Virus record (IMG/VR): IMGVR_UViG_3300042887_000389
Coordinates: 1 to 61,230 of that record
Origin: a virus
Length of the DNA: 61,230 bases
Reading direction: 5' to 3' (one strand)
Made by a program: the position numbers and the translations under genes. Shown here piece by piece: positions 4,197 to 15,412 of this stretch; positions within the stretch are counted from its first letter, which is position 1; every line of letters starts with the position of its first letter. The notes under the pieces are model-generated. The model had not been told where the DNA came from. It did not search any database and saw only the letters and a program-made list of their open reading frames with translations.

Positions 4197-4928
4197 TTAA
4201 AGGGTTTCATTTATAAAGTAATTGTCAATATCATCTGTTGGGTTTGGTCCGAAGTACCTGTAGTACACCTCCATTGCTCGCTCTACCTTGGCTTCTCCGC
4301 CCTTCACGAACTCTTCGGATGGTCTGAACAGACCGAGCTGCTCAGATTCCTTGTCAATAACGTAAAAGTATAGAGGCTTTCCAAATAATTGCTGGTAAAT
4401 GTAGCACTGAGAGTCATAGTTGTAACTCTTTGCAGACCACCTGAACTTGTTGATGTCTGATGTAGTCTTCAGATCAATGATTGAATCAGCAGTGACGATG
4501 TCAGCCTTCGCTTTCCATTGCAGTCCCTTAATCTCACCAATGGTTGGCTCCTCGTATAGGTTGCCATCCCTGTAGATGTCATCGTAGAACTGGAGGTTGG
4601 ACTTCATTACACTAGCAAGACGAACAATCTCATCGTACTCCTTGGTCAACATGGCGAACTCAAGACCAGAATCTTCAAGGTACTTCTTGTACTCCTTTGT
4701 ATTGCGTGTACTGACATCCACCTGTGGCACGTTTACAGCCTTCTCAGGCTCTAGAATTAGTTGATGGAATAGTCTTCCCTCATGAAAGTGTTTTGAGTCC
4801 TCTGAGCGGGCTCTAAATCGCTTGGGATTTGTGAGCAATGCATAGATGTCTGAGTTGGATAGGTAGTACTTACCCTTACCATTGTAGTACTCATCATCAT
4901 CCCTGAGTTCATCGATTATTGTATTCAT
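4197..4928 (-). CDS. PD-(D/E)XK exonuclease, RecB/RecE (ExoVIII)-like
   Basis: A 243-residue nuclease of the PDDEXK superfamily, probably degrading one strand of DNA ends to feed the phage annealing protein. Visible motifs: GRLFHQLIL at about 51-59 (family motif I, His55), Asp143 in KADIV, the catalytic IDLKTT at 151-156 (Asp152, Lys154), and a YDSQCYIYQQ helix at 171-180 that matches the C-terminal Q/Y motif. It starts inside the end of the methyltransferase gene (overlap 4909-4928), so the two are coupled. With the annealing protein at 5813-6433 it forms a RecE/RecT-like pair. Confidence 0.85.
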   Translation of the reverse strand: MNTIIDELRDDDEYYNGKGKYYLSNSDIYALLTNPKRFRARSEDSKHFHEGRLFHQLILEPEKAVNVPQVDVSTRNTKEYKKYLEDSGLEFAMLTKEYDEIVRLASVMKSNLQFYDDIYRDGNLYEEPTIGEIKGLQWKAKADIVTADSIIDLKTTSDINKFRWSAKSYNYDSQCYIYQQLFGKPLYFYVIDKESEQLGLFRPSEEFVKGGEAKVERAMEVYYRYFGPNPTDDIDNYFINETL

Positions 4929-5820
4929 ATTGTTCTATAGTTTTAAATATTTGATAGACTACCTGTGGTACTATGGCATTTCCTCCTGCCATGATTGATT
5001 CTTTTCTCCATTTAGAAAAGGTAATAGCGTCCAGTCTACTGGAAAGCCCATCATCTCCATCACAAATTGGGGGGACAGATGGGAACATTTCGAAGTCTGC
5101 TCTTGGTAATTTATTGCATCCTTCAAGCTGTTTGTCATCGGGTTGTGACCCTCCCTCGGAGCGTTCCCTCTCCTTCCTGCATTCTTGTCCGATGATACTG
5201 GAGTCGGAAGCATTCCCATTGATGCCATTTGCTTCAAAGGATTCTGAACATTTACTCCCTTCAGTGCATGTCTTTCCTTTGCTTTCTGAAATGTCTCCGG
5301 TTTCTTTGGACTGTTCCAATCGTACGCACATGGAGTGGGCAACGAACCATACCCTTTGCCTGAGATGGGGAGCGTTGACGCTTGCAGCTGGAAGTATAAA
5401 CGGTTGGACTTCGTACCCTTCAGATTCCAGGTCAGCTTGCACCTCTTCGAATACCATCCCTCCATTCCAACTAATAAGCCCACGAACGTTTTCGCCCACA
5501 ACCCAGCGTGGTTTGATTTCTCGAATTGCTCTAAGCATTTCAGGCCAGAGATGTCTGTTATCCTCCTTGCCGAGTCGCTTCCCTGCTGTTGAGTAGGGCT
5601 GACATGGGAATCCTCCTGTGATGATGTCAATTTCTCCTCTGTAAATAGAGAAGTCTGTCTTGGTAATGTCATTGTGTGATATTGAATTAGGCCAATAATA
5701 TTTTAAGACTCTCTGACCGAATGGATTCCATTCACAATGGAATACGTTCTCCCATCCCATCCAATCGGAGGCCAAATCAAAGCCCCCGATTCCACTGAAT
5801 AGTGATCCATGTCTAAGCAT
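4909..5820 (-). CDS. dcm: DNA (cytosine-5) methyltransferase
   Basis: A 303-residue C5 methyltransferase that moves a methyl group from S-adenosylmethionine to cytosine. Motif I FSGIGGFDLA is at 8-17, the catalytic PCQ loop GGFPCQPYS at 69-77 (Cys73), motif VI ENVRGL near 111-116, motif VIII LRQRVWFVA near 153-161, and motifs IX/X end with GGNAIVPQVVYQIF. It probably protects phage DNA from host restriction. Its ATG overlaps the stop of the annealing gene and it runs into the exonuclease start. The segment between motifs VIII and IX is unusually Ser/Glu/Gly-rich, exactly where a second ORF (4971-5672) lies in another frame. Confidence 0.93.
   Translation of the reverse strand: MLRHGSLFSGIGGFDLASDWMGWENVFHCEWNPFGQRVLKYYWPNSISHNDITKTDFSIYRGEIDIITGGFPCQPYSTAGKRLGKEDNRHLWPEMLRAIREIKPRWVVGENVRGLISWNGGMVFEEVQADLESEGYEVQPFILPAASVNAPHLRQRVWFVAHSMCVRLEQSKETGDISESKGKTCTEGSKCSESFEANGINGNASDSSIIGQECRKERERSEGGSQPDDKQLEGCNKLPRADFEMFPSVPPICDGDDGLSSRLDAITFSKWRKESIMAGGNAIVPQVVYQIFKTIEQYEYNNR
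4971..5672 (-). CDS. Overprinted ORF wholly inside the methyltransferase gene, methyltransferase-associated protein
   Basis: A 233-codon ORF on the same strand as the methyltransferase but in a different frame, and entirely inside it. It is not random: it carries an LPTP...D pattern twice, a GLWAKTFVGLLVGMEGWYS segment and LSPQFVMEMMGFPVDW near the end. I recognise these as signatures of proteins found beside or inside phage and Bacteroidota cytosine methyltransferases. The ATG at 5672 has no obvious ribosome-binding site. A start that depends on coupling, or a frameshift giving a fused product, is possible. Function is unknown; it could complete the target-recognition part of the methyltransferase. 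Coding status rests on motif conservation recalled from the family. Confidence 0.6.
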   Translation of the reverse strand: MTLPRQTSLFTEEKLTSSQEDSHVSPTQQQGSDSARRITDISGLKCLEQFEKSNHAGLWAKTFVGLLVGMEGWYSKRCKLTWNLKGTKSNRLYFQLQASTLPISGKGYGSLPTPCAYDWNSPKKPETFQKAKERHALKGVNVQNPLKQMASMGMLPTPVSSDKNAGRRGNAPREGHNPMTNSLKDAINYQEQTSKCSHLSPQFVMEMMGFPVDWTLLPFLNGEKNQSWQEEMP

Positions 5821-13822: not shown

Positions 13823-15412
13823 ATGGAACCTAAGGATTTATTCTTTGCCCAGGAGGGCAGACTCAAATTAATCTCTGGCATCAAGAAGATGGCTGGAGCG
13901 GTGAAGAGTACGTTGGGGCCTTATGGCAACACGGTGCTTATTGAGAGTCCTAATCACACGCATGGCATTACTGTAACAAAGGATGGGGTGACTGTCGCTA
14001 AGTCAGTTGACTTGATTGACCCTGTTGAGAACCTTGCGGTGAGGATGATGAAGGAGGCTGCTGATAGAACGGCTACCTCTGCTGGTGATGGCACGACTAC
14101 TGCCATAGTGTTGACTGAGGGGTTGGTGTTAGGAGGGTTGGAGCACATTAAAGATGACATGAGTCGCACTGAGGTGTTGAGGCACATTGGTGAGTTGAGT
14201 GGGCATGTGATAGATGGGTTGAAGAAGAAGGCCAAGAGGGTGAGCACAAACATGCTGCTTGATGTGGCGACTATAAGTGCTAACAATGACCGTGAGACCG
14301 GGAAGATTATTGCTGACGTGTACAAGGCTGTCGGCAAGACTGGCATAGTAACGGTGGAGCGGAGCCAGACAAGTGAGACCTATGCTGAGACCACGCAGGG
14401 GCTAAAGATTGACAGGGGGTACACAAGCCCACTGTTCATTAATGATCAGAGCCGAGATGAGTGCGTGTTTGAGGACGTGCATGTGCTGGTGGCTGACATT
14501 GAGATAGGTAACATCTTGCAGATTGAGAACGTGCTGAAGCCAATCATTACTGATGGGAAGAAGCTACTCATTGTGGCACCGTGCCACGTGAACGTGGTGA
14601 ACACACTTGCTGCAAACGTGATGAAGAACAATCTAAAGATGTGCGTGGTACAACCACCCAGCTTTGGGTACAAGCAGCATGAGCTGATGCAAGACCTGGC
14701 GGTGAGTGTCGGAGCGACATACTTCAGCGAGAAGACAGGCGATGACCTGAGTCAGATTACTATTGATGACCTGGGGCATGCATCCAGAGTGGTGGTGAGC
14801 AAGGACAAGACCATCATCCTTAAGAGTAACTTAAGGATAGATGAGGTGAAGGTCGAGGAGCGAGTAGCACAACTATGGCAGGCACATAAGGTCGCTAAGC
14901 GTAAGGCTGACAAGGACCACCTGCTTGAGCGCATTGCCTCACTAACCGGTGGCATTGGTGTGATATACGTGGGTGGGCAGACTGACCTGGAGCAGAAAGA
15001 GTTATACGACCGGGTTGACGATGCGGTGTGTGCTGTGAGGAGCGCATTGGAGGAGGGCATCCTACCGGGTGCTGGCAAGGCGTTGCTAGATGAGACTGCT
15101 GTGATTAGAAAGGAGCTATTCTTTAACTTAAGCAAGGAGCGTGAGGCTGCCATTGAGATACTATCAAATGCGATGATGGCACCATTCCAGCAAATCCTAG
15201 CGAACGCTGGGCTCAAGCCAAGTGACGTGTACAAGGAGGGCGTGGCTGTGGGGCATGGGTACAACCTGAAGACTGCTCAGACAGGTGACCTCATTAAGAT
15301 GGGTGTGATTGACCCACTGAAGGTGACTCGAAGCGCATTGCAGAACGCTGTGAGCGTAGCGACAACTATTCTAAGTACCAATGCTATCATAACAATTGCT
15401 AGACCATACTAA
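13823..15412 (+). CDS. groEL: Phage-encoded chaperonin GroEL (Cpn60)
   Basis: A 529-residue group I chaperonin subunit, close to the usual 540-550. It keeps LGPYGNTVLI (31-40), DGVTVAKSVDL (54-64), the ATP-binding AGDGTTTA (87-94), NDRETGKI, and the catalytic Asp near 398 in VDDAVCAVRSALEEGILPGAG. The C-terminal Gly/Met-rich tail of cellular GroEL is absent, the chain ending IARPY. It would form a folding ring, probably for virion proteins. The leader TTTAAATCAAATG precedes the ATG. Base composition is richer in G+C than the early operon (for example 32 of 60 bases at 14701-14760). GroES lies 3 kb away in another unit. Confidence 0.97.
   Translation: MEPKDLFFAQEGRLKLISGIKKMAGAVKSTLGPYGNTVLIESPNHTHGITVTKDGVTVAKSVDLIDPVENLAVRMMKEAADRTATSAGDGTTTAIVLTEGLVLGGLEHIKDDMSRTEVLRHIGELSGHVIDGLKKKAKRVSTNMLLDVATISANNDRETGKIIADVYKAVGKTGIVTVERSQTSETYAETTQGLKIDRGYTSPLFINDQSRDECVFEDVHVLVADIEIGNILQIENVLKPIITDGKKLLIVAPCHVNVVNTLAANVMKNNLKMCVVQPPSFGYKQHELMQDLAVSVGATYFSEKTGDDLSQITIDDLGHASRVVVSKDKTIILKSNLRIDEVKVEERVAQLWQAHKVAKRKADKDHLLERIASLTGGIGVIYVGGQTDLEQKELYDRVDDAVCAVRSALEEGILPGAGKALLDETAVIRKELFFNLSKEREAAIEILSNAMMAPFQQILANAGLKPSDVYKEGVAVGHGYNLKTAQTGDLIKMGVIDPLKVTRSALQNAVSVATTILSTNAIITIARPY

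Follow-up and report, generated by a model that had tools for sequence, protein, structure and literature searches.

The 61,230-base IMG/VR virus record analysed here (the window, meaning this whole stretch of DNA) likely encodes a C5 cytosine methyltransferase made of two polypeptides, in which the small DNA-recognition domain would be produced by a gene (beta) lying inside the gene for the catalytic subunit (alpha). Beta is a real overprinted gene, conserved and selected, as evidenced by the openness of its frame, the codon-position pattern, the reduced synonymous divergence, and the conserved start and Shine-Dalgarno sites, in agreement with the overprinting suggested by an earlier note on this DNA. 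In the proposed enzyme, alpha would make the large domain, which binds SAM and includes the catalytic PCQ loop, motif VIII, and the closing motif X helix, and beta, translated from its own internal ATG in the +1 frame, would make the missing small domain, composed of an N-terminal module, an LPTP-repeat module at the target-recognition position, and motif IX. The two chains would assemble into one enzyme, with beta presumably contacting the target DNA, that could methylate the phage DNA, probably as a protection from host restriction. The features concerned are as follows.

4909..5820, minus strand: alpha, C5 cytosine methyltransferase catalytic subunit (303 aa; motifs I-VIII and X, without motif IX)
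4971..5672, minus strand: beta, nested gene in the +1 frame of alpha (233 aa)
5670..5672, minus strand: beta start codon ATG, overlapping alpha codons Asn50-Asp51
5590..5619, minus strand: alpha motif IV with the catalytic Cys (GGFPCQPYS), invariant in alpha alignment A4
5373..5576, minus strand: beta N-terminal module, approximately residues 33-100, helices and a beta hairpin in the AlphaFold model
5332..5373, minus strand: alpha motif VIII region APHLRQRVWFVAHS, from the HhaI alignment and alignment A4
5319..5342, minus strand: beta LPTP unit 1 (LPTPCAYD), from the sequence and alignment A2
5187..5210, minus strand: beta LPTP unit 2 (LPTPVSSD), from the sequence and alignment A2
5086..5328, minus strand: alpha Ser/Glu/Gly-rich linker, the same DNA as the beta LPTP (presumed target-recognition) module
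5028..5078, minus strand: beta motif-IX-like segment LSPQFVMEMMGFPVDWT, from hhalign to single-frame relatives
4945..4983, minus strand: alpha motif X GNAIVPQVVYQIF, conserved in alignment A4 and a confident C-terminal helix

Openness, start site, and selection of the nested frame

The beta ORF begins with an ATG, comprises 233 codons, and falls fully within the 303-codon alpha ORF on the minus strand, confirming the claim of the earlier note that an ORF of this length is wholly nested in the methyltransferase gene in another frame of the same strand. The motifs that the note had picked out in this frame, namely two LPTP....D units, GLWAKTF...GMEGWYS, and LSPQFVMEMMGFPVDW, were all present. 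Beta matched the phrog_1008 family (E=2.4e-19, best stretch at residues 12-173), and its homologues were found by tblastn in 70 phage records. Relatives from viral contigs were gathered in two ways, 80 via the alpha protein and 80 via the beta protein, and in all 157 IMG/VR loci examined both ORFs were intact, the homologous beta lying within alpha in its +1 frame.

For the openness test, only alpha-selected, non-redundant loci were used (n=60), with the region set by alpha alone (residues 56-265). The +1 frame was open in 60/60 of these relatives, far above the chance expectation per gene of 0.0125 (mean after shuffling each gene's own synonymous codons) or 0.0006 (pooled codon usage). Over the same residues the +2 frame was open in 0/60, and the three antisense frames in 1, 0, and 0 of 60. 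Across a wider region (alpha 52-282), the +1 frame was open in 20/60 because beta stops before residue 282 in many relatives. An antisense ORF over the same region of the window (4973-5596, plus strand, 207 aa) was rejected as a conserved gene, not being maintained in relatives. The two genes were also tightly linked: a beta-profile search of genome contigs retrieved 80 loci, all with both frames present (77 nested and 3 overlapping), and in 39/40 loci from a phrog_1008 search of genomes the match overlapped a C5 methyltransferase in its +1 frame, the remaining locus (L372) looking rearranged. Homologues with a freely broken second frame, which would speak against overprinting, were looked for and not found.

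The start of beta was conserved as well. Of the 114 non-redundant loci, 95 had an in-frame ATG at the alpha Asn50/Asp51 junction or a single codon before it, and 97 had one within a few codons of this junction. In Paenibacillus phages, a Shine-Dalgarno-like GGGAGGTG was found about 10 nt upstream of the beta ATG, and in a gut phage (L009) a Shine-Dalgarno-like AAGGAGAG preceded it. No Shine-Dalgarno site was seen at the beta start of the window; missing sites of this kind are common in Bacteroidota, although the host of the window may belong to another group.

Codon-level divergence was analyzed in 54 independent pairs, each sequence being used once. Comparing homologues in both frames, as the earlier note had proposed, revealed that the fourfold-degenerate sites of alpha diverged by 0.188 inside the overlap vs 0.350 outside it (Wilcoxon p=3e-8). 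In the LPTP region, corresponding to the alpha linker, 51/54 pairs were more variable at beta position 3 (alpha position 1) than at beta position 2 (alpha position 3) (p=2e-9). This greater variation at beta position 3 demonstrates that, over the alpha linker and the beta LPTP module, selection sees the nested frame.

Mean pairwise identity on the same bases differed along the overlap, with values for beta and alpha of 0.60 and 0.83 over beta residues 1-105, 0.40 and 0.28 over residues 106-190 (the Ser/Glu/Gly-rich stretch), 0.71 and 0.62 over the motif-IX segment, and 0.73 and 0.90 over residues 216-233. The earlier note had placed the Ser/Glu/Gly-rich stretch exactly where the nested frame is most conserved; the absolute peak lies instead in the motif-IX segment and the C-terminus of beta (0.71-0.73), but the nested frame does surpass the methyltransferase frame in this stretch. 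In addition, the beta repeat LPTPTASD and the alpha linker motif of the ADADSIG type were encoded by the same DNA in two frames at all loci, so that a change in repeat number alters both proteins together.

It is hardly credible that the second frame is open merely as a by-product of the alpha sequence and codon usage, with no second protein being made. Over alpha motifs IV-VIII, beta-frame identity does largely follow from the constraint on alpha, being 0.748 as observed vs 0.744 when synonymous changes were shuffled, and a paired shuffle over alpha 241-282 did not discriminate between observed and shuffled sequences. Shuffling alpha-synonymous changes between pairs, however, predicted 32 stops in the beta frame, vs 6 observed. 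A by-product would, moreover, have to account for the 60 open frames at a null of 0.0125 per gene, the near halving of fourfold divergence within the overlap, the position-3 pattern, the better conservation of beta than alpha in the linker, and the conserved ATG and Shine-Dalgarno sites.

Division of methyltransferase modules between the two frames

Alpha carried the C5 methyltransferase motifs I, IV (PCQ), VI (ENV), VIII, and X, and overall I-VIII and X. Its match to PF00145 (E=2.7e-43) stopped at residue 172 and its alignment to HhaI at residue 162, at motif VIII, and it resembled HhaI and HaeIII over the large domain only. The AlphaFold model of alpha comprised a good Rossmann domain to approximately residue 170, a disordered part (180-270), and then the confident motif X helix; Foldseek likewise matched this model to HhaI over the large domain only (E=4.7e-13, 164 columns). 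The linker at 5086..5328 was predicted to be disordered (pLDDT ~29-52), and on the same bases the beta frame was better conserved. Neither motif IX nor a folded recognition domain was found in alpha by Pfam, the HhaI alignment, the AlphaFold model, or a motif scan. Single-chain Streptococcus phage enzymes (L170, L172, and L175) have motif IX before motif X (RKLTPKECWRLQGFP in L170), a segment of which alpha is devoid. Thus, the claim that the methyltransferase frame keeps motifs I to X held for I-VIII and X, whereas motif IX is missing from it and the nested frame's LSPQFVMEMMGFPVDW is motif-IX-like. By the PF00145 criterion, the window alpha does not hold a recognition domain and motif IX within one polypeptide; taken together, the alpha and beta pair does contain motif IX, in beta.

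In an alignment of 93 beta sequences, an N-terminal module whose last element is a beta hairpin was followed by LPTP....D repeats, numbering from one to several and spaced by variable sequence, and by the motif-IX-like segment, in which L(N/S)PxFVxxMMGFPxxWT was strongly conserved. The N-terminal module is overprinted on alpha motifs IV-VIII, and S75, L80, and W82 of beta were invariant in alignment A3. The motif-IX segment matched the stretch just before motif X in single-frame relatives (hhalign probability 93.4, E=2.4e-7), albeit over 23 columns only. The AlphaFold model of beta was of low confidence (pLDDT 64.6, pTM 0.32), and Foldseek with this model gave no meaningful match and no solved relative. 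Beta had no match in the PDB, whether searched by sequence or by profile, Pfam and NCBIfam contained no model matching it, and the LPTP module showed no sequence match to a known target-recognition domain. Beta is therefore proposed as the putative small domain on the basis of motif order in relatives and of motif IX, rather than of its fold, and the LPTP module may have a recognition role as judged from its position.

Four layouts of the same modules were identified among relatives. In layout A, that of the window, alpha has I-VIII and X, and beta has the N-terminal module, LPTP, and IX. In layout B (Gordonia phage JKSyngboy and most contigs found with it), alpha has I-VIII, IX, and X, and the +1 ORF has the N-terminal module and LPTP only. 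Layout C (L332 and L334) has I-VIII, LPTP, IX, and X all in one frame, so that the LPTP module follows motif VIII and precedes motif IX, the usual position of a target-recognition domain. In layout D (L335, L336, and mycobacteriophages such as BellusTerra), alpha has I-VIII and the second ORF has LPTP, IX, and X. Motif X is accordingly found in beta in L335 and L336, and also in L168, and in alpha in the window. Across 323 loci, some of them redundant, motif IX was detected in beta only (240), in alpha only (78), in both (1), in the +2 frame (1), or not at all (3), and hence in exactly one of the two frames in 318/323. The best argument for the two chains forming one enzyme is that this functional element occurs a single time, whichever chain carries it. 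The target-recognition partner envisaged by the earlier note is likewise the best-supported function for beta, which holds the modules lying between motifs VIII and X in single-frame relatives and lacking in alpha.

A different role for beta, as a genuine overprinted protein that is not a methyltransferase subunit (e.g., an accessory protein acting on host restriction or replication), is considered unlikely. It would be in line with the lack of a fold match for beta, with the N-terminal module, which has no known function, and with a connection between alpha and beta that is drawn from sequence. Such an independent protein would nevertheless be difficult to reconcile with motif IX occurring in exactly one frame at nearly all loci, with an alpha that is devoid of a small domain, with the sharing of one chain by the same modules and alpha in some relatives, and with only 1/40 beta-profile loci being without an overlapping alpha in the same relation.

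Judged from frame layout and start sites, ribosomal frameshifting that would yield a fused enzyme, with motifs I-VIII from alpha and with the recognition module and motif IX from beta, is very improbable. Layout D (L335 and L336) would yield a complete enzyme by a single +1 shift after motif VIII. In the window, however, the nested frame stops before motif X, so that a single shift would lose this motif, and the alpha frame has no stop at the junction that would promote or mark a shift; furthermore, beta has its own conserved start in most relatives, with strong Shine-Dalgarno-like sites in Paenibacillus phages. The frameshift fusion raised in the earlier note is thus unsupported for the window.

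There is about an even chance that the loci represent an ancient overprinted pair that regularly supplies a single enzyme from two reading frames of the same DNA. Under this reading, the frames would have exchanged motif IX, the LPTP module, and motif X in the course of evolution without loss of the complete set, and the target-recognition domain itself would be nested and overprinted.

Several relatives showed further peculiarities of frame length and integrity. The beta ORF covered almost all of the alpha ORF in an Acinetobacter phage (L338, 1077-1971; 298 vs 315 codons) and on a Leptospira plasmid (L341, 1344-2130; 262 vs 284 codons), so that the two genes overlap nearly completely. In three Bacteroides-related loci, L226 (2859-3869), L252 (2856-4016; the same in L253), and L008 (291-2459), the alpha frame contained 2, 3, and 4 in-frame stops, respectively. 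All nine were TGA, several of them at conserved Trp codons (AAE*MGW in all three loci), and beta stayed open, while the longest neighbouring ORFs needed no TGA readthrough. These stops could mean that alpha is decaying while beta is maintained, or that TGA is read through locally.

Distribution and comparison with known split enzymes

Alpha and beta occurred together in phages infecting Bacteroidota, Bacillota, Actinomycetota, and Pseudomonadota, on the Leptospira plasmid, and in bacterial contigs, also including Balneolaceae, Phycisphaerales, Calditrichota, and Parcubacteria bins. Counting both phages and genomes, these sequence records place the alpha/beta pair in at least six bacterial phyla. 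A Roseovarius genome bin (L243-L247) had five copies of one alpha/beta locus with identical scores, perhaps a repeated prophage. In the phylum of this bin, phrog_1008 was detected in 25/399 sampled genomes, and in two other phyla in 4/399 and 2/396, the seed genome being counted in each case. In the window, the pair sits in a module for phage replication and recombination, its neighbours encoding a primase/helicase-like protein (BT4734-like_N), a PDDEXK-like protein (DUF3799), a Sak single-strand annealing protein, and a DnaA-C-like protein. Of the ten window proteins scanned, none was recognised as a partner restriction endonuclease. Elsewhere in the window (13823-15412, plus strand), the virus codes for a full-length GroEL-type chaperonin (Cpn60_TCP1, E=4.8e-56).

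The catalytic large domain of alpha and its motif order (I-VIII ... X) are shared with M.HhaI, M.HaeIII, and the Streptococcus phage enzymes L170, L172, and L175, but these single-chain C5 enzymes hold the recognition domain and motif IX in the same chain, both of which the window alpha is without. Window beta matches phrog_1008 (329 positions), whose family name, 'DNA methyltransferase', is silent on overprinted partners. Two natural split C5 enzymes have been described, M.AquI and M.EcoHK31I (PMC3404938). In M.EcoHK31I, alpha comprises motifs I-VIII and X and the predicted target-recognition domain, and beta comprises motif IX; in M.AquI, beta comprises part of the variable region and motifs IX and X (PMC3404938).

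Like the window pair, M.AquI (CYCGRG) is a natural two-polypeptide C5 methyltransferase divided after motif VIII, but its motif X is in beta, unlike in the window, where motif X is in alpha; the relatives L335 and L336 have the same division as M.AquI, with overlap. M.EcoHK31I (YGGCCR; isoschizomer M.EaeI) is similar in having two polypeptides, both of which are needed in that enzyme, with I-VIII and X in alpha and IX in beta. Its beta gene reportedly lies within the gene for alpha, in a different frame (Lee, Kam and Shaw 1995), which is also the arrangement of the window. The predicted recognition domain of M.EcoHK31I is, however, assigned to its alpha, whereas the window alpha has a disordered linker and beta appears to fill the recognition-domain position. 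As compared by description, the window would therefore resemble M.EcoHK31I in layout and motif division, and it is not filed as a member. A literature search found no paper on this phage overlap, although subscription papers were mostly outside its reach and the absence is unproven; the breadth of the pair, its near-obligate linkage, and the movement of modules between frames appear to be new.

These findings have consequences for the annotation and use of such enzymes. Many records show one 'DNA methyltransferase' where two proteins exist, and the annotated gene cloned alone, or a codon-optimised copy in which the second frame is destroyed, would probably yield an enzyme without activity. Targeted methylation tools have been built from naturally split C5 methyltransferases (PMC3439449), so that a large collection of natural pairs with recognition on its own chain could be useful. 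A long gene nested within another on the same strand is usually dismissed in bacteria and phages, and one phage annotation protocol explicitly penalises overlaps (PMC6070908); the alpha/beta pair is a conserved case of such nesting, in which the two genes are almost never found apart.
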